A stretch of DNA of 64,000 nt, taken from positions 620,001 to 684,000 of the forward strand of contig NZ_JUGR01000002.1 in assembly GCF_000800015.1 (NCBI RefSeq), written 5' to 3'. Origin of the DNA: Terriglobus sp. TAA 43 (GTDB lineage Bacteria; Acidobacteriota; Terriglobia; Terriglobales; Acidobacteriaceae). This document shows, in pieces, positions 39,084 to 64,000 of the stretch. The translations under genes and the position numbers were made by a program. Each line of letters begins with the position of its first letter. The stretch's first letter is position 1. The notes beneath the pieces are model-generated. The model did no database searches. It saw only the letters and a program-made list of their open reading frames with translations, and was not told the origin of the DNA.

Positions 39084-39331
39084 TGTCAAGCCCCCAAACC
39101 ACCCAACCTCAACAAACCAAACGAAATAGAGTTGGCAGGTTATTTCCTCTCGCTCTCTAAAATAGAAATAGAGCCATCAATCGCTGAGTAAGCGGAGCAC
39201 CAACTCAGCTCCTAACTCGTTTAGAAAGACGATTTTGCCTCTAACGCCAATGGACAGACGATTTTAGCGACACCAAAATCGTAACTCCAATAGAAAGACG
39301 ATTTTAGAAAAACAGGGGGGAGGGGGTACCC
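39084..39331 (-). repeat. Multi-box intergenic repeat element, copy A
   Basis: Strand is given by the box order of copy B (57548-57807). On the + strand the boxes are: TGTCAAGCCCC (39084-39094), a 25-nt box containing GTTGGCAGG flanked by GAAATA and TATTTC (39123-39147), an 18-nt box CTAAAATAGAAATAG (39154-39171), a 25-nt box with TTTAGAAAGACGATTTTG (39220-39244), a 23-nt box with CAGACGATTTTAGCG (39247-39269), and a 40-nt box ending GGGGGTACC (39291-39330). Every box recurs in copy B and spacings match except one (48 versus 58 nt). No coding potential is seen. Confidence 0.85.
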
Positions 39332-57547: not shown

Positions 57548-57807
57548 GGGGGTACCCCCTCCCCCCTGTTTTTCTAAAATCGTCTTTCTAAAAGAGTTAC
57601 GCCTTCAGTTCCGCTAAAATCGTCTGCCCATTGGGTTTAGAGGCAAAATCGTCTTTCTAAAGGGGTTAAGAGCAGCGAGGCAGCCGGTTACCGAGTCCGT
57701 CAGCCAGCGGGATTCTTGGCTATTTCTATTTTAGAGAACTTGTGGAAATAACCTGCCAACTCTATTTCTTTTGATTTGAGCAGTTTAGGCGACTTAGGGG
57801 CTTGACA
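57548..57807 (+). repeat. Multi-box intergenic repeat element, copy B
   Basis: Inverted relative to copy A. In order: a perfect 12-bp palindrome GGGGGTACCCCC (57548-57559) inside a 40-nt box (57551-57590) identical to copy A; a 23-nt box CTAAAATCGTCTGCCC (57612-57634); a 25-nt box GCAAAATCGTCTTTC (57637-57661); an 18-nt box (57720-57737); a 25-nt box with ACCTGCCAACT (57744-57768); and GGGGCTTGACA (57797-57807). AAAATCGTCT occurs three times (57576, 57616, 57645). The last box gives a TTGACA -35-like hexamer reading toward the next gene. No gene in the 450-base gap was seen. Confidence 0.85.
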
Positions 57808-57935
57808 ACTTTTTCCGGCGATTGTGGCACTATTCCATCGCAGCAAATTTGGAGAAGTATTTGCTTGTCACTGTTTGGCGTGCATGCAACCCGCGCCTCT
57901 GAGACGTCTCTCAAAGTTGAGGAGCCCTTATTTTT

Positions 57936-58610
57936 ATGAGTTTGCGATCGTTTGTCTTTCTTTCCGTTTTTGTTCTGGGTGGCGTAGCTACGGCTACTGC
58001 ACAGGACGCTGCTGGTGATGCAGCGCAGAAACCCACCTCATTGGTGCAACCGGCGCTGAACAAGGTGGCGCAGGCCGGCAGCAATGTGGACCTGAACAAG
58101 TGGAAGGGTGGCAATGGTTTGCGCGGTGAGGTAGACGCGAATCTGGGCTCTGTTCAGAAAGATTTGCAGAACACCCTGCCTCCCCTTCTTGCGGATTCCG
58201 ATAAGGCGCCCGAATCTGTGCCCGCGAGTCTTCGTATCCTGCTGAACCTGGACGCGCTGTATAACGTGCTGCTGCGCATCCAGATTGCGGGTAAGGGAAA
58301 CGCCCCACGCGACCAGGCCGAGGCCCTGGACGGGGCTCTGGCGTCGCTGGATGGGGCACGCCGTAGCCTGGGCGAACGCATCATCAGTTCTTCTGCGGCG
58401 CAGGACAAGAAGATCAGCCAGTTGCAGGCGACGGTTCAGCAGCAGAATGCCCAGATTGCAGCGGCACAGCAGGCGGCTGCTGCGGCAGCAGCGGCTCCGC
58501 CACCGGCGAAGACTGCTCCGAAGAAGAAGACAGTGAAGAAGAAGCCTGCTACGACGCCTCCTGCTACGACCACCGCTCCTGCGGCAGCTCCACCGGCGGC
58601 TACGAAGTAG
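57936..58610 (+). CDS. Secreted coiled-coil protein with a Lys/Ala/Pro-rich tail
   Basis: 224 residues with a signal peptide (cleavage after ATATAQ). A helical region follows (SLRILLNLDALYNVLLRIQIAGKG; AEALDGALASLDGARRSLGERI), then a coiled coil (DKKISQLQATVQQQNAQIAAAQQ). The C-terminus is a positively charged, low-complexity tail (PKKKTVKKKPATT). It could bind peptidoglycan, nucleic acid or polyanions, but no family is recognised. GAGGAG lies about 11 nt before the ATG. It stands directly downstream of element B. Confidence 0.8.
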   Translation: MSLRSFVFLSVFVLGGVATATAQDAAGDAAQKPTSLVQPALNKVAQAGSNVDLNKWKGGNGLRGEVDANLGSVQKDLQNTLPPLLADSDKAPESVPASLRILLNLDALYNVLLRIQIAGKGNAPRDQAEALDGALASLDGARRSLGERIISSSAAQDKKISQLQATVQQQNAQIAAAQQAAAAAAAAPPPAKTAPKKKTVKKKPATTPPATTTAPAAAPPAATK

Positions 58611-58651
58611 GGTTTGCCTCAGCGGCTAAAGCCCTGCGCGTTGGAAATAAA

Positions 58652-58677
58652 AGAGGCATCCCGTTGGGGATGCCTCT
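58652..58677. terminator. Bidirectional hairpin terminator before trxB
   Basis: AGAGGCATCCC-GTTG-GGGATGCCTCT: 11-bp perfect stem with a 4-nt loop, followed by TT. It lies between convergent genes. Confidence 0.9.
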
Positions 58678-58703
58678 CTTACTTGCCTGTGTCTCGGTTC
58701 GGA

Positions 58704-59678
58704 TTAGCGGCCGTGGTCTTCGAGGTACTTTTCGACTTCGAGAGCGGCCATGCAGCCCGTGCCCGCGGCGGTGATGGCCTGACGGTAGCGGCGGTCCTGT
58801 ACGTCGCCTGCGGCGAAGACGCCGGGGATGACCTTACCGTCGAGCGTGGTGAAGACATTGTCTTTGCTCTTGATGTAGCCGTCGCCATCCAGATCCATCT
58901 GGCCTTCGAAGAACTTGGCGTTCGGAATGTGACCGATGCCGAGGAAGAAGCCGCTGAGCGCGATCTCCTTCACCTCGCCGGTGACGGTGTTGCGCACGCG
59001 GATGCCGCTGACTTCCTTCTGTTCGACTCCAAGAACCTCTTCCACGACGGTGTTCGGAAGGAACTCAATCTGCGGGTGGGCCATGGCGCGTTCCAGCATG
59101 ATCTTGCTGGCGCGGAAGGTGCCCGAGCGATGGATCAGGTAAACCTTGGTGGCAAAGCGCGTGAGGAAGATGGCTTCTTCCATGGCGGAGTCGCCGCCGC
59201 CGATGACGCAGATCTCTTTGCCGGAGAAGAAGAAGCCGTCGCAGGTGGCGCAGGACGAAACACCGTGGCCGATGAGGGCCTGTTCGCTGGGCAGGCCTAA
59301 CCAGCGTGCCGATGCACCGGATGCGACGATGAGCGTCCGTGTGTGCACGATGCGGTCGCCACCGAAGTTCAGCTCGATGGGGGTCTTGGAGAGGTCGGCG
59401 GAGTGAAGGTGGCCCATCTCAATTTCCGCACCGAACTTCTGCGCCTGCTTGCGGATGTTCTCCACGAGTTCGGGGCCCTGTACGCCGTCGGGCCAGCCGG
59501 GGAAGTTTTCCACCAGAGTGGTGATGGAAAGCTGGCCGCCGGGTTCGTGACCTTCAATGACAAGCGGCTTGAGGTTGGCGCGAGCCGTGTAGATGGCAGC
59601 GGTAAGGCCGCTGACGCCGGAGCCGAGAATGACAACGTCGCGTGTGGTGCTGGAAGGCGTAGAGGATGTGTTCGACAT
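58704..59678 (-). CDS. trxB: Thioredoxin-disulfide reductase
   Basis: 324 residues, normal for low-molecular-weight TrxB, an FAD enzyme that reduces thioredoxin with NADPH. Motifs: FAD-binding GSGVSGLTAAIYTARA, redox-active C143-ATC146 in SSCATCDGFF, the NADPH motif IGGGDSAMEEA, and GVFAAGDVQDRRYRQAI at the C-terminus. The reading frame is open far upstream, but the ATG at 59678 matches the family N-terminus. Divergent from the DUF1440-like gene. Confidence 0.96.
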   Translation of the reverse strand: MSNTSSTPSSTTRDVVILGSGVSGLTAAIYTARANLKPLVIEGHEPGGQLSITTLVENFPGWPDGVQGPELVENIRKQAQKFGAEIEMGHLHSADLSKTPIELNFGGDRIVHTRTLIVASGASARWLGLPSEQALIGHGVSSCATCDGFFFSGKEICVIGGGDSAMEEAIFLTRFATKVYLIHRSGTFRASKIMLERAMAHPQIEFLPNTVVEEVLGVEQKEVSGIRVRNTVTGEVKEIALSGFFLGIGHIPNAKFFEGQMDLDGDGYIKSKDNVFTTLDGKVIPGVFAAGDVQDRRYRQAITAAGTGCMAALEVEKYLEDHGR

Positions 59679-59813
59679 GAGGTCCGATCTGCTGTCTCTC
59701 TTGCGCTGACCTGTACGAAGCAGCGCAACAGCCATCATTCTAAATGCGCGAGGACCATGAAAGGATTCAAGACGGGCCACCCGGTTCCTGGAGCCGGCGT
59801 CCCAGAGAGAGCT

Positions 59814-60242
59814 ATGACGAAAGAAACGAAGAAGCTTCCCGCACCGGCACGAGACATTTTGAAGGGCGCACTGGCAGGTATGATTGGCGGACTGGTGGCC
59901 ACGGCAGCCAGAACCGTTGCGGAAAAGGTGTACCCTCCGCACCCTGAACTGGCACGGCGGCAGAGCGAAGAGAGCAAACTGATGCCGTGGGTACTGGGCG
60001 CGGCGGCGGGTGCCGCGTATGGCGCGGTGGCGGAACTTTATCCGCCGGTCACGGACAGGCACGGGGCCAACTTTGGCATGACGATGCTGGCCGTGACACA
60101 CGAAGGTGTTTTGCCGGCGTTGGGATTGGCTGCGCGCCCTGATCCGCATTCGGGCCGTGAGCATCGCAGCGAGATGGTGACACACGTGGTGTATGGCGTG
60201 GTATGCGAAACCGTACGCGAGCTGGCGCGACGCGCTCTTTGA
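59814..60242 (+). CDS. YagU/DUF1440-like membrane-associated protein
   Basis: 142 residues. The segment ILKGALAGMIGGLVATAARTVAEKVYPPH, a glycine-rich membrane-type helix, is the common YagU/DUF1440 start, and MPWVLGAAAGAAYGAVAELYP plus TMLAVTHEGVLPALGLA give two more. The ending VTHVVYGVVCETVREL fits. Possibly an inner-membrane protein of acid-tolerance type, but functional evidence is thin. An ATG at 59757 is an alternative start, adding 19 residues. Confidence 0.75.
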   Translation: MTKETKKLPAPARDILKGALAGMIGGLVATAARTVAEKVYPPHPELARRQSEESKLMPWVLGAAAGAAYGAVAELYPPVTDRHGANFGMTMLAVTHEGVLPALGLAARPDPHSGREHRSEMVTHVVYGVVCETVRELARRAL

Positions 60243-60345
60243 GCGCTGTTGACAGGCGGTAGTTCGGTTCACTACACAGGCGGCGGAACACTTGCGCGTG
60301 CTGCGGCGTATTGCGAGCACACGTAACTGTTGAGGATGCCCCGCT

Positions 60346-61923
60346 ATGGCTGTTGTTCGATCTTCCGGTATTGCGTTTTTCCTGCTCACGTCGCTTGCTG
60401 CAACCTGCCAGACCGCTGTTCAACCGGGGCAGATGAAGAAGGTGGCGGAGGTTGATCCGCGGTTTCTTTCGTACAACGTGGAGACGGTGGAGGTTACGGG
60501 TGGCCGCTTCTGGAAGCCCTATTCCTCCAAGGCTGAGACGCCTGCCGAGACGGCGAATACGAACGCGCCTGTAGGGATTGATCCGAGCATGTTTCAGTAC
60601 CGCGCTCCGATTGATCTTTCGCAGGCGAAGCTGCGGCGGCTGGCGAGTGCGTTGGCTCCGGCTTACATGCGTGTGAGCGGGACGTGGCGGAATAGCAGCT
60701 TCTTTCAAAACACGGATGATCCGGCACCGAAGAGTCCGCCAACGGGCTATCAGGCGGTGTTGACGCGTGCGCAGTGGAAGGGTGTGGTGGACTTCTCGCA
60801 CGCAGCGGGAGCGGAGCTGGTGACGTCTGTTGCCACGAGTGCGGGGACTCGGGATGCGAGTGGGGCGTGGACTCCTGCGGAAGCTGCGGGGTTCTTCGAG
60901 TACACGAAGAGCGTGGGTGGGCACATTGCCGCTACAGAGTTCATGAATGAGCCGACATATGCGTCGATTGGCGGCGCGCCTGCGGGTTATAGCGGTGCGG
61001 ACTTTGGACGCGATGTGAAGGCGTTCCGCAGCTTTCTGAAGAAAGCTTCACCGAGCACTCTGCTGCTGGGGCCAGGGAGTATTGGCGAGGGCGTGGTGAT
61101 GGCTGGCGGCGCGACTGCTGGTGGGCCGAAGCTGTCGCCCACGACGCCGGAGATGCTGCAGGCTACGGGCCCGATCTTCGATGCGTTCTCATATCACTTT
61201 TATTCCGACGCTTCACAGCGATGCACGCGGATGATGGGGCTGAAGTTTGTGAACACGCCGGAGACGGCGATGACGGCAGCGTGGTTTGACCGGAATATGC
61301 AGGGGTTCAATCACTACGCTGCGGATCGCGATAAGTATTTGCCCGGGAAGCAAATGTGGCTGACCGAAACGAGTGAGGCGGCGTGCGGCGGTGATCCGTT
61401 TGCGGCGCAGTTTGTGGATGTGTTTCGGTTCATGGACCAGCTTGGTTCGTTGTCGGCGAAGGGCGTGCGCAGCGTGATAGTGAACACGCTGGCTTCGAGC
61501 GATTACGGGCTGCTGGATGAAGAGACGTATGCGCCTCGTCCGGACTTCTGGGCTGCCGTGTTGTGGAAGCGGACGATGGATGTGCGCGTGCTTGATCCCG
61601 GGATTTCATTGACGGGGAAAGCGCGTGTGTATGCGGCTTGCGAACGCGACCACAAGGGCGGTGTGACGCTGCTGGTGATTAACTTTGATAACTCGGCGGA
61701 GCAGGCACTTACGCTGCCCGTTGCGGGAGAGCGTTACACGCTTTCGTCGCCGGAGCTGACGAGTAAGCAGACGATGCTGAATGGGACAGAACTGACTGCG
61801 GGTGCGGATGGTTCGTTGCCGGTCATGGCTGGTGCGAAGGTTACTGCTGGGAAGGTTAGCTTTGCTCCTTTGACGGTTAGTTTTGTCACGCTGCCGGGTG
61901 CGAAGAACGCCGCTTGCCAGTAA
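60346..61923 (+). CDS. Secreted GH79-type beta-glucuronidase/heparanase-like enzyme
   Basis: 525 residues with an N-terminal signal sequence (FFLLTSLAATCQ). The GH79 barrel is recognisable: SYNVETVEVTGGRFW, AYMRVSGTWRNSSFF, TEFMNEP (E202, acid/base) and WLTETSEAACGG (E341, nucleophile), followed by a C-terminal beta-sandwich (GVTLLVINFDNSAEQALTLPVAG). GH79 enzymes act on glucuronic-acid linkages in arabinogalactan proteins or heparan sulfate-like polymers. Exact specificity unknown. A very strong terminator follows. Confidence 0.85.
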   Translation: MAVVRSSGIAFFLLTSLAATCQTAVQPGQMKKVAEVDPRFLSYNVETVEVTGGRFWKPYSSKAETPAETANTNAPVGIDPSMFQYRAPIDLSQAKLRRLASALAPAYMRVSGTWRNSSFFQNTDDPAPKSPPTGYQAVLTRAQWKGVVDFSHAAGAELVTSVATSAGTRDASGAWTPAEAAGFFEYTKSVGGHIAATEFMNEPTYASIGGAPAGYSGADFGRDVKAFRSFLKKASPSTLLLGPGSIGEGVVMAGGATAGGPKLSPTTPEMLQATGPIFDAFSYHFYSDASQRCTRMMGLKFVNTPETAMTAAWFDRNMQGFNHYAADRDKYLPGKQMWLTETSEAACGGDPFAAQFVDVFRFMDQLGSLSAKGVRSVIVNTLASSDYGLLDEETYAPRPDFWAAVLWKRTMDVRVLDPGISLTGKARVYAACERDHKGGVTLLVINFDNSAEQALTLPVAGERYTLSSPELTSKQTMLNGTELTAGADGSLPVMAGAKVTAGKVSFAPLTVSFVTLPGAKNAACQ

Positions 61924-61926
61924 ATC

Positions 61927-61974
61927 AAACCGCCCTCTTCTCCCTGTGTTTCTTGTGGGAGAAGAGGGCGGTTT
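61927..61974. terminator. Bidirectional 18-bp hairpin terminator
   Basis: AAACCGCCCTCTTCTCCC (61927-61944) pairs perfectly with 61957-61974 across a 12-nt loop, followed by TGTTTTTG. It separates the convergent GH79 and NIPSNAP genes. Confidence 0.93.
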
Positions 61975-61993
61975 TGTTTTTGTTTGCTGCTTG

Positions 61994-62779
61994 CTAGATC
62001 TGCGAGTAAGCAGTGGGTGTTAGCACCAGATTGTCGACGTGCGTAACGATGGGTTCGCTGGCGTAGCGCGGGTTGCTGGAAAGTTTCTTCCAGTCGGGAT
62101 GGCTGAGGAAGTTCTTCCAGTTCTGATCCATGGCGGCGAGGTCTTTGTGCGCCAGCATGTAGGTGAGGCTGGGGAGGTCGGGGCCGATGAGGTTGTCGGA
62201 GTAGAAGACGCCGCGTGCGCCCGATTCCTCGAAGATGCGGAACTCGCCCTGGTGGAACATTTCGACTTTGCGTTCGTGCGCGGCGAAGGTGGGGCTGATG
62301 TAGGTGCGGAGCTGCAGGATGCGTGGCTCCTTTGCCGGGACTACGAGTTGCGGGAAGCCTTCAAACGCGATCGACAGGCGGCTGGTGACGGTGATGAAGG
62401 GCGACTGCGTGGCCGGTGTTGCCCAGAACGGAGCGGCGGCGGAGACGAACGCGGGATCCTTCGCGAGAAGGAGGTCGAGCTTGGCGAGCTTCTCAAGGTC
62501 GTTGCCGGAGATGATGACGTAGACCTGCGGTGTGGCGTCGCCGTAGCTGAGGTTGAACACACCGACGGGACCGAGGCCAAGACGCTGCAGCGCGGGCAGA
62601 AGCGCGTCGGACAGGTACGTGCTGAGGAGCTTGCCGGAGGGGCCAGACTGCATCTTGTAAATGCGCGTCAGGAAGTAGCTGCGAGGCTTTGCGCCCTGCG
62701 CCACGGACGGGGTTGTGTTTGCGATGCCTGCGGCTGCTGCCATGGCAGCGCCTCCCTTTAACCAGTCGCGCCGGTTCAT
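61994..62779 (-). CDS. Tat-exported NIPSNAP-domain protein
   Basis: 261 residues with a twin-arginine signal (NRRDWLKGGAAMAAAAGIA, cleavage near VAQG). Two tandem NIPSNAP domains: one from SYFLTRIYKMQSGPSGKL, a second from ILQLRTYISPTFAAHERKVEMF, with the family's FFE-like EEYR replaced by HQGEFRIFEESG. Function unknown; the ferredoxin-like dimer fold may bind small ligands. GAAGGAAACC lies just before the ATG at 62779, so the longer upstream frame is not used. It is divergent from the S1/P1 nuclease gene. Confidence 0.88.
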   Translation of the reverse strand: MNRRDWLKGGAAMAAAAGIANTTPSVAQGAKPRSYFLTRIYKMQSGPSGKLLSTYLSDALLPALQRLGLGPVGVFNLSYGDATPQVYVIISGNDLEKLAKLDLLLAKDPAFVSAAAPFWATPATQSPFITVTSRLSIAFEGFPQLVVPAKEPRILQLRTYISPTFAAHERKVEMFHQGEFRIFEESGARGVFYSDNLIGPDLPSLTYMLAHKDLAAMDQNWKNFLSHPDWKKLSSNPRYASEPIVTHVDNLVLTPTAYSQI

Positions 62780-62902
62780 GGTTGGTTTCCTTCGTGGATG
62801 AAATCGGATCTGCGGAGCAAGTGTACCGGAGTAGCGTGGATTCGCGGGTGGTTTCACACGCGTGACATCTCCTGGCGCGCGCCGCTCCATTATGCTGAAT
62901 GT

Positions 62903-63820
62903 ATGCGTAAGTTCCTTGCTTCAGCCGCCCTTGTTGCCGTTCTTTTGCCGTCTGCCGCCCATGCGTGGTGGGAGAAGGGACACCGCCTGGTGGCGCAGAT
63001 TGCGTGGGACCACCTGACGCCGGTTGCGCGCGAGAATGTGCAGTTTCTGCTGGGTAAGGAATCGCTGTCGGATGTGGCTTCGTGGCCGGATGTGTATCGC
63101 CCCAGCGTGACGCAGACGGGTAACTGGCACTTCACGGATATTCCGGGAGACACGGATAAGTACGACCGCGACCGCGACTGCCCGTTGCAGCCGGGCGTGA
63201 AGATGGGCAGCTACAACGACAAGGTGCGCGACTGCGCTACGGATCGCATTCCGTTTTTTGAAAAAATTGTTGCCGATACGACACTTGATCCTTCGGAACG
63301 CGCCACGGCGCTGAAGTTCCTGGTGCATTTTGTGGGCGATATCCATCAGCCGTTTCATGCGTCGGGTGTGGAGAAGGGTGGCAACGGCATTATCGTCACT
63401 GCGTTTGGTCAGTCGACGTGCAGCAGCTATGCCACCCCAGCGAAGTGCAACCTGCATGCTATCTGGGATGGATTCCTGATCGACCGTCGCAAGCTGAGCG
63501 ACAAGCAGTACCTGGCGATGTTGGAAGGCGATATCAAAACACACTCGGTAGAGGCTGGGCCGATTGATCCGGTTGCGTGGACGGAGCAGTCCAAGGTTGT
63601 GTCGGACGCTGGCATGGTGACGAGCGGCGCCGATATTGATGAGGCGTACTACCAGAAGTTCATCCCAACGATTGATCGTCAGTTGGAGCTGGGTGGACTT
63701 CGGTTGGCGGCGGAATTGAATGCGGCGTTTACGCAGCCTCCGCATGCTTATGTTCCCGTGGATGCGGAAAAGGCAGAAGCAGAGCGCGAGAGTGCTTCGC
63801 AGAAGCCCGCCGGCAAGTAA
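62903..63820 (+). CDS. S1/P1-family single-strand nuclease
   Basis: 305 residues with a signal peptide cleaved before WWEKGH, the tryptophan that binds a catalytic zinc with its free amino group in this family. Other zinc ligands: GHRLVAQIAWDHL (H), SWPDVYR (D), NWHFTDIP (H), FLVHFVGDIHQPFHA (H, D, H, H) and CNLHAIWDG (H, D). It degrades single-stranded nucleic acids and 3'-nucleotides outside the cytoplasm, plausibly for phosphate scavenging. The ATG at 62903 gives the signal peptide. Confidence 0.95.
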   Translation: MRKFLASAALVAVLLPSAAHAWWEKGHRLVAQIAWDHLTPVARENVQFLLGKESLSDVASWPDVYRPSVTQTGNWHFTDIPGDTDKYDRDRDCPLQPGVKMGSYNDKVRDCATDRIPFFEKIVADTTLDPSERATALKFLVHFVGDIHQPFHASGVEKGGNGIIVTAFGQSTCSSYATPAKCNLHAIWDGFLIDRRKLSDKQYLAMLEGDIKTHSVEAGPIDPVAWTEQSKVVSDAGMVTSGADIDEAYYQKFIPTIDRQLELGGLRLAAELNAAFTQPPHAYVPVDAEKAEAERESASQKPAGK

Positions 63821-63844
63821 GTTACGAGTTAAGGAAGCAACGAG

Positions 63845-63870
63845 AGAGGGTCGCCTGATGGCGACCCTCT
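63845..63870. terminator. Bidirectional hairpin terminator after the nuclease gene
   Basis: AGAGGGTCGCC (63845-63855) pairs with 63860-63870 over TGAT; TTCTGTTT follows. It also serves the partial gene entering from the right. Confidence 0.9.
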
Positions 63871-63896
63871 TCTGTTTCTCAAACTTGTTTGCGGAG

Positions 63897-64000
63897 TTAC
63901 ATGCCTGCAGGAGCTGGTGCGGGGGTGGCGGTTCCCTTTGCCGCGGTAAAGCTGCCGGTGACACCGAACGGATCAACATCCATGGTGCCGGTCAACGCGC
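63897..64000 (-). CDS. C-terminal fragment of an unidentified gene (5' part beyond window)
   Basis: The last 33 codons of a minus-strand gene, ending in TAA. It reads ALTGTMDVDPFGVTGSFTA and then an Ala/Pro-rich tail (TPAPAPAGM). Too short to identify; the ending resembles the disordered tails of secreted acidobacterial proteins. Confidence 0.55.
   Translation of the reverse strand, partial: ALTGTMDVDPFGVTGSFTAAKGTATPAPAPAGM

Follow-up and report, generated by a model that had tools for sequence, protein, structure and literature searches.

The genome from which the window derives, probably that of an acidobacterium, carries about fifty copies of an intergenic DNA element of about 250 bases that recurs far beyond chance, has a polar architecture and is flanked at almost all of its sites by GC skew of one direction. 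We propose, at a probability of roughly 0.45, that every element launches DNA synthesis or strand displacement that proceeds only towards its TTGACA end and extends over approximately 15-65 kb. Sequence data establish how the element is built, that its lengths are phased, that its sites are orthologous, that the skew and its polarity recur in three species and that head-on neighbours are widely spaced in one of them. Bacterial chromosomes are usually assumed to be polarised by one origin; dispersed domains of one-directional asymmetry, if true, would mean many extra DNA-synthesis starts or a programmed single-strand process. Furthermore, element-organised asymmetry would explain the irregular GC skew of these genomes, and the elements give every prediction a fixed coordinate.

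Two copies lie in the window (the whole stretch of 64,000 nucleotides analysed here), copy 1 at 57548-57807 on the plus strand and copy 2 at 39084-39331 on the minus strand. An exact-block comparison of copy 1 with the reverse complement of copy 2 confirmed the six shared boxes of the preliminary description; the first box proved to be 41 nt long instead of 40, and the other lengths (23 nt with one mismatch, 25, 18, 25 and 11 nt) stood, box 2 consisting of 15 nt, the mismatch and 7 nt. As first described, spacers of 21, 2, 6 and 28 nt are equal in both copies and one is unequal (58 versus 48 nt), AAAATCGTCT occurs three times per copy, and both copies have a GGTACC/C-tract at one end and CTTGACA at the other. 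The 21-nt 'spacer' contains a further common GAGTTACG, which is the end of a 25-nt repeat unit, and the boxes are in fact three direct repeats together with other sites. In copy 1, the GGTACC/C-tract end with TGTTTTTC (57548-57574, plus strand) is followed by direct repeat 1 (25 nt, 57575-57599), repeat 2 located 40 nt past repeat 1 (57615-57639) and repeat 3 located 29 nt past repeat 2 (57644-57668). A variable spacer (57669-57719), which belongs to the longest class of the helically quantised lengths of the family, leads to the AT-rich box 4 (CTATTTCTATTTTAGAGA, 57720-57737), box 5 (GGAAATAACCTGCCAACTCTATTTC, 57744-57768) and the conserved end GGGGCTTGACA (57797-57807). Copy 2 contains, on the minus strand, the GGTACC/C-tract end (39307-39331), direct repeats 1 to 3 (39282-39306, 39242-39266 and 39213-39237), box 4 (39154-39171), box 5 (39123-39147) and the GGGGCTTGACA end (39084-39094).

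The element is one member of a family. In the window's own genome (G000, 4.95 Mb), a 16-nt core was matched 95 times at up to two mismatches, versus once for the reversed-pattern control, and BLAST of a window copy against the same 4.95 Mb returned 47 matches, some of which are fragments of a single copy. A model of the 5' half built from sequence only matched 48 times in G000, 49 and 38 times in the two sister species G003 and G008, 27 times in G012, 21 in G006, 13 in G005 and three times each in G001 and G014, and thus in 8 of 19 genus genomes. Matches to a 3'-half model occur in 24 of 120 family genomes. The element is present in sister species, and diverged versions are found elsewhere in the family; a named relative is the Acidobacteriaceae record of Granulicella tundricola MP5ACTX9 plasmid pACIX901. 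In a plasmid search the window copy matched nothing and another copy matched pACIX901, and a phage search with one element query gave no match. Pattern searches of a genome-contig collection, from which near relatives were possibly excluded, yielded 0 and 2 matches (a Clostridia bin and Saccharibacillus), and those of a viral-contig collection 0 and 1, the latter having two ten-mers without other boxes.

For the measurements below, 130 entries of G000, G003 and G008 were fetched, which cover all G000 model matches except C4:154978 and 33 of the 38 in G008. L092 and L094 are without an element by profile, L211 holds two elements, and L042 and L182 each consist of two overlapping entries, which when merged reduce the 48 G000 and 49 G003 entries to 47 and 48 loci. 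Interval counts rest on the 117-124 measurable entries (114 in the distinct-spacer reduction), after three nonsensical negative distances were dropped. Two G008 entries, L217 (C1:1-6000) and L218 (C5:1-6000), come from two contigs of one assembly that both start at the identical position inside an element; the 5' halves of the two copies may be identical, or the copies may recombine.

The order of parts in the family is GGTACC plus C-tract, TGTTTTTC, three 25-nt direct repeats with a consensus near TAAAATCGTCTTTCTATTGGGGTTA, the variable spacer, box 4 (CTATTTCTATTTTAG), box 5 (GGAAATA..ATGCCAACTCTATTTC) and, after a poorly conserved stretch of nearly constant length, GGGGCTTGACA. Across the three species, repeat 1 to repeat 2 measures 40 or 41 nt in 121 of 124 cases and repeat 2 to repeat 3 measures 29 nt in 122 of 124; box 4 to box 5 is 30 nt in 108 of 117, and box 5 to the end is 54 nt in 98 of 117 and 75-76 nt in five. 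The distance from box 3 to box 4 falls into classes of 57-60 nt (92 of 119), 67-71 nt (20) and 79-80 nt (2), the remaining five being 49, 51, 56, 86 and 101 nt, and no copy measures 61-66 or 72-78 nt. These classes persist when the set is reduced to 33 sequence-distinct spacers (19, 11 and 2, plus one of 86 nt), for which the Rayleigh value is inflated by the narrow main class and the empty intervals carry the argument. Steps of about one helical turn suggest that the parts must sit on matching faces of double-stranded DNA. The box 4-box 5 region has an AT content of 64% compared with 42-45% in the flanks. CTTGACA ends 99 of 109 elements, a count that is favoured by locating ends with CTTGACA at up to one change, and is also conserved in alignment A2. 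By inspection the ends GGGTACCCCC and GGGGCTTGACA are unlike, so that neither a short palindromic unit nor terminal inverted repeats were seen. To the right of the element end at L151 in G003, CTTGACA is followed six bases on by an inverted TGTCAAG, which is possibly the footprint of a lost opposing element.

Of the three kinds of explanation first offered for the boxes, a multi-site protein target gains from the fixed 40/29 spacing and the helical-turn steps, and a structured RNA is not supported: RNAalifold found 0 conserved pairs in alignments of both element halves (A1, 44 sequences; A2, 48). Taken together, helical-turn steps in the spacer and the lack of conserved RNA pairing make the element look like a DNA-protein assembly. 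In line with the preliminary description, which knew of no named family with this pattern, Rfam 15 gave 0 matches above the gathering score in the window or at five loci, all but one of which belong to other genomes; five sub-threshold matches coincide with the nearby terminator hairpin at 57.5 kb or extend slightly beyond it. Many single copies contain a GC-rich hairpin inside the variable spacer. A sigma-70 promoter reading from the TTGACA end was rejected, as by inspection no conserved -10 follows TTGACA.

The third kind, recent mobility of the element, is not supported by these comparisons. Beside the orthologous left gene, 44 of the 47 G000 loci are occupied in G003, and in the partly fetched G008 26 of 47 were matched by the left gene, and one more through its right flank alone. 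Identity in 33 orthologous pairs of G000 and G003 is 0.91-0.95 for the boxes, 0.74-0.79 for the inner spacers and 0.89 for 300 nt of left flank; the corresponding values are 0.83-0.93, 0.58-0.72 and 0.83 for 16 G000-G008 pairs, and 0.82-0.93, 0.50-0.64 and 0.48 for random G000 paralogues. Occupancy and identities together indicate that the sites are inherited and the boxes conserved, which either selection or conversion between copies could produce. The earlier description of a multi-box element with conserved boxes and distances stands. Between more distant species, positions and repeat sequences nevertheless turn over. Other lineages have a different repeat sequence that is alike among the copies examined within one species, for example at nine G012 loci, and 31 of 38 loci of other genomes (at least two pairs of which overlap) gave no tblastx match above 80 bits to three-species flanks. 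One flank-matching foreign locus, in G012, adjoins the same left gene as a three-species locus.

The elements are intergenic, with a left gap of at most 64 nt in 36 of 47 G000 loci according to a simple gene caller. The left genes in the window encode a bactofilin and a PmbA/TldD protease, and eight other window proteins that were searched include several glycoside hydrolases and one RNase E/G. Among the 46 distinct locus pairs of G000 and G003, 28 retain both flanks (in some cases with the right flank offset), 16 the left only and two the right only. Evenly spaced chromosome-organising sites were considered and rejected (gap CV 0.86; 18.5% of random sets lower). About 1 kb to the left of one element, at a locus orthologous in all three species, lies a gene for a 303-aa ATPase (L102:4052-4963, minus strand, with G000 and G008 counterparts), which has a weak DnaA-family match and to the eye may be of the helicase-loader type.

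As a simple two-arm strand rule for element orientation failed (best axis p 0.27), skew was tested locally. GC skew on the element strand, taken over 1.4 kb per side, is positive at 46 of 47 G000 loci, 48 of 48 G003 loci and 30 of 33 G008 elements; the G000 exception, L042, is zero, and two of the three in G008 end at a contig edge without a right flank. Taken singly, left flanks are positive in 45/48, 47/49 and 28/33 entries and right flanks in 41/48, 44/49 and 28/33 (G000, G003 and G008, respectively). The left flanks of L217 and L218 have a skew of the wrong sign. Opposite elements only 4-7 kb apart in G003 each show the matching sign in their own locus. Third codon positions exhibit the element-strand skew in genes of either strand, the fraction above zero being 0.86-0.97 within 1 kb and weakest (0.69) for plus-strand genes far to the left. 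Mean skew on the left side falls from about 0.1 to 0.03-0.06 at 2.75 kb and keeps its sign for approximately 2-3 kb. On the right, 19 flanks from ten pairs chosen for differing right flanks average 0.08 in the first 2 kb and 0.11-0.18 at 2-16 kb.

In the window, copy 2 points left and copy 1 right, in agreement with the signs of the surrounding skew. The domain to the right-hand side of copy 2 (1-39083, minus strand) has a forward GC skew mostly of -0.12 to -0.28 in 2-kb windows, is weaker (-0.05 to -0.10) at 31-36 kb and continues with the same sign for about 3 kb on the left-hand side of the element, to approximately 42.5 kb. Forward skew ranges from -0.10 to +0.07 at 43-56 kb and is positive past 58 kb, where the domain to the right-hand side of copy 1 (57808-64000, plus strand) starts at about 0.03 and rises to 0.20. 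Over 400 contiguous kb of contig C2 (334-734 kb), strong skew begins at four elements and extends approximately 34, 40, 65 and 15 kb rightward, with no strong skew beyond a few kb to their left and mostly weak values elsewhere, including a mean of about zero at 414-506 kb (-0.10 to +0.09 in 4-kb bins). The mean upward jump at these four elements exceeds that at random positions (p ~0.0004), a test of place and not of orientation; no separate jump maximum coincides with the 659-kb element, and a smaller jump, at 450 kb, occurs where there is no element. Patches without an assigned element occur at 346-362 kb (to -0.13) and, small and of opposite sign, directly left of the 520-kb element. At G000:C2:694-734 kb GC skew is slightly negative and T-over-A mostly positive over 40 kb, unlike the element domains.

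The extent of the domains is similar in G003, where nine samples up to 60 kb to the right of a plus element have skews of 0.039-0.189 and the 11 others do not exceed 0.066 in size, a bound that also applies to samples for which no plus element lies within 70 kb on the left. Elements facing each other are widely separated in this species: convergent gaps have a median of 137 kb and a minimum of 64 kb, and divergent gaps a median of 42 kb and a minimum of 4 kb (p 0.004 and 0.003). The head-on test on G000 C1 is weaker (p 0.11 for convergent and 0.01 for divergent gaps) and not independent of the G003 set. Among 35 diverged loci, the left flank is positive in 32 and the right in 30, G151 and G005 being weak or mixed. 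On pACIX901, a clear copy (151 kb) and a weak second match (195.8 kb) both fit the skew polarity, and no element was found at positive patches at 50-66 and 166-174 kb. About two to three of the five weak matches in G130 fit: the one at 687.7 kb lies on a clear jump and that at 676.9 kb fits weakly, the 433-kb match falls within a positive domain whose start precedes it, the match at 556 kb is weak and that at 600 kb has the opposite sign. G007, in which R1 matches are absent, has one end-like motif, with the opposite sign, and several 20-kb samples with strong local skew; these samples suggest that genomes counted as negative contain more diverged elements that escaped detection.

Directional substitutions were compared within element flanks only. 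On the element strand, 27 left-flank groups (one locus twice) from G000, G003 and G008 have 148 G>T versus 59 C>A and 72 T>G versus 18 A>C; counted per site, these transversions are about two to three times as frequent as their complements. When the groups are split by left-gene strand (17 and 9), both transversion biases keep their sense and transitions follow the gene strand. Judging from these groups, the transversion excess is a strand-specific substitution bias that has acted since the three species split. Eight right-flank groups have 35 G>T versus 11 C>A and 14 T>G versus 8 A>C; in these groups, in contrast to the left flank, A>G changes outnumber T>C.

Synthesis or displacement launched at the elements is the best reading of domains that start there, run one way, fade over tens of kb and avoid head-on neighbours, and we infer that DNA synthesis is the cause, with the element as its starting point and a single protein occupying the repeats. 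A polar nucleoprotein assembly would form at each element, with a DNA-binding protein on the three iteron-like direct repeats; the helically phased spacing would bring the bound protein up to boxes 4 and 5, which are AT-rich and at which strand opening or cutting would occur, and the start would be a melted origin or a nick at CTTG/ACA. The plus strand of the element would thereby more often be single-stranded and slowly turn G- and T-rich. A plus strand rich in G and T is commonly seen where a rightward fork copies that strand continuously or where the strand is often displaced in single-stranded form. The main misfit is the same-sign skew over 2-3 kb on the left-hand side, as a clean start at the TTGACA end predicts none. 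dnaA is intact in all 19 genus genomes and in G000 lies about 18 kb from an element, so that an ordinary origin probably exists as well. DnaA boxes (TTATCCACA, at most one mismatch) were found in only 1 of 109 elements and 4 of 130 flanks, and Rep3_N (PF01051) is absent from 19 of 19 genus genomes. It is conceivable, although rather doubtful, that about fifty sequence-defined unidirectional DNA-synthesis starts are distributed over the chromosome and plasmids, served by a fast-evolving initiator with dnaA kept, and that strand asymmetry is set by these elements and not by one origin and terminus.

An unlikely alternative to synthesis launched at the element is that it merely marks such places: a mobile element, now immobile and phased for its transposase, would have inserted in an oriented manner at pre-existing fork or single-stranded sites and have no role in the skew. 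Lineage-specific repeats and turnover of sites between distant species are typical of amplified mobile families, and some transposons are known to have phased ends with multiple sites. At several loci a gene for a Y1 transposase (HUH) is found no more than about 0.5-2 kb from an element or a partial element (G000:C3:226007-226324; G008:C2:17557-17847; G008:C1:1548259-1548582; G012:C1:4463886-4464203). Y1_Tnp genes are present in 17 of 19 genus genomes, but their numbers do not track those of the elements. The G130 match inside, not at the edge of, a skew domain also suits a passive marker; the C2 elements, in contrast, sit at domain edges. The 44 of 47 loci common to G003 count against it as well, and the higher identity of boxes than of spacers and left flank in the 33 orthologous pairs means that something maintains the boxes after insertion.

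Rather improbable is a programmed break near the element, whose left end would be resected over 2-3 kb, leaving the plus strand single, while its 3' end would prime rightward break-induced synthesis. This would cover both the short left-hand skew and the long right-hand domain. Species-specific stretches of about 1-10 kb directly right of the element, found in the ten pairs picked for differing right flanks, would fit as indels left by breaks, but they are perhaps ordinary, since the element sits so near its left gene; moreover, three phased repeats are atypical of a simple cleavage site. At the G003 locus L073 (C1:1721867), the left flank corresponds to one G000 site and the right flank to another (L009 and L010), which indicates a rearrangement or a cassette move with the element at its edge and would likewise accord with breakage.

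It is improbable that the skew stems from transcription, in which case the element would act in antitermination at 3' ends or as a site of very long-range transcription, and the non-template strand, being exposed, would gain skew. The sign is the one expected of a non-template strand, and the C-tract and hairpins could act in RNA. The left gene points towards the element in 29 of 47 G000 loci, but away from it in 18; the skew is about equally strong over genes of both directions, conserved RNA pairs are lacking, and 49 of 109 copies hold a GC hairpin followed by T residues inside the element. Very improbable, finally, is an oriT-like origin of single-strand transfer, or run-off replication that supplies a gene transfer agent; this would also account for the changing gene content on the right. 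It suits right flanks that are less conserved and lower in G+C than left flanks (~0.55-0.57 versus 0.57-0.61 over the first 1.25 kb), and in Bartonella a plastic region is known to undergo run-off replication (PMC2697382). Against it, the PF03432 relaxase is absent from 7 of 7 genomes examined and the PF05065 capsid from five of these seven (G000, G003, G008, G012 and G006).

Literature searches of partial coverage returned no prior account of the element or of element-organised skew. Among known systems, iteron-type unidirectional plasmid origins (pSC101, RK2, mini-F) span about 250 bp and comprise three or more direct repeats of about 20-25 bp and an adjacent AT-rich region; helical phase between their parts matters, whole-turn insertions are tolerated, and pSC101 acts unidirectionally. 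The element shares with them a direct-repeat array at a fixed distance and an AT-rich region in fixed phase, at which unwinding may occur, and differs in its approximately 50 copies per chromosome, the absence of Rep3_N from the 19 genomes, the lack of DnaA boxes and the CTTGACA end. The low frequency of DnaA boxes (1/109) also sets it apart from DnaA-oriC, which has a DnaA box cluster. Rolling-circle double-strand origins and HUH nick sites (phiX174, pC194) contain CTTG/A, and the element likewise has CTTGACA at one end, where putative nicking followed by one-directional displacement would give the observed polarity; unlike at such origins, its skew is of the same sign also 2-3 kb to the left. 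REP/BIME and MITE repeats are similarly intergenic, lineage-specific in sequence and present in tens of copies, whereas the element has fixed multi-box spacing, dissimilar ends, sites stable between sister species and skew polarity. The Bartonella run-off origin is, in the portion of the account at hand, one phage-linked chromosomal site in a plastic region with over-replication declining with distance in both directions (PMC2697382), compared with about 48 polar sites here. Cyanobacteria with irregular GC skew replicate from multiple origins, and as far as the accessible part of that report extends (PMC7198777), they resemble the genomes described here in having chromosomes without a regular two-arm skew, and many replication sites; no origin-marking sequence element is named in that part, whereas here defined polar elements occur together with an intact dnaA.
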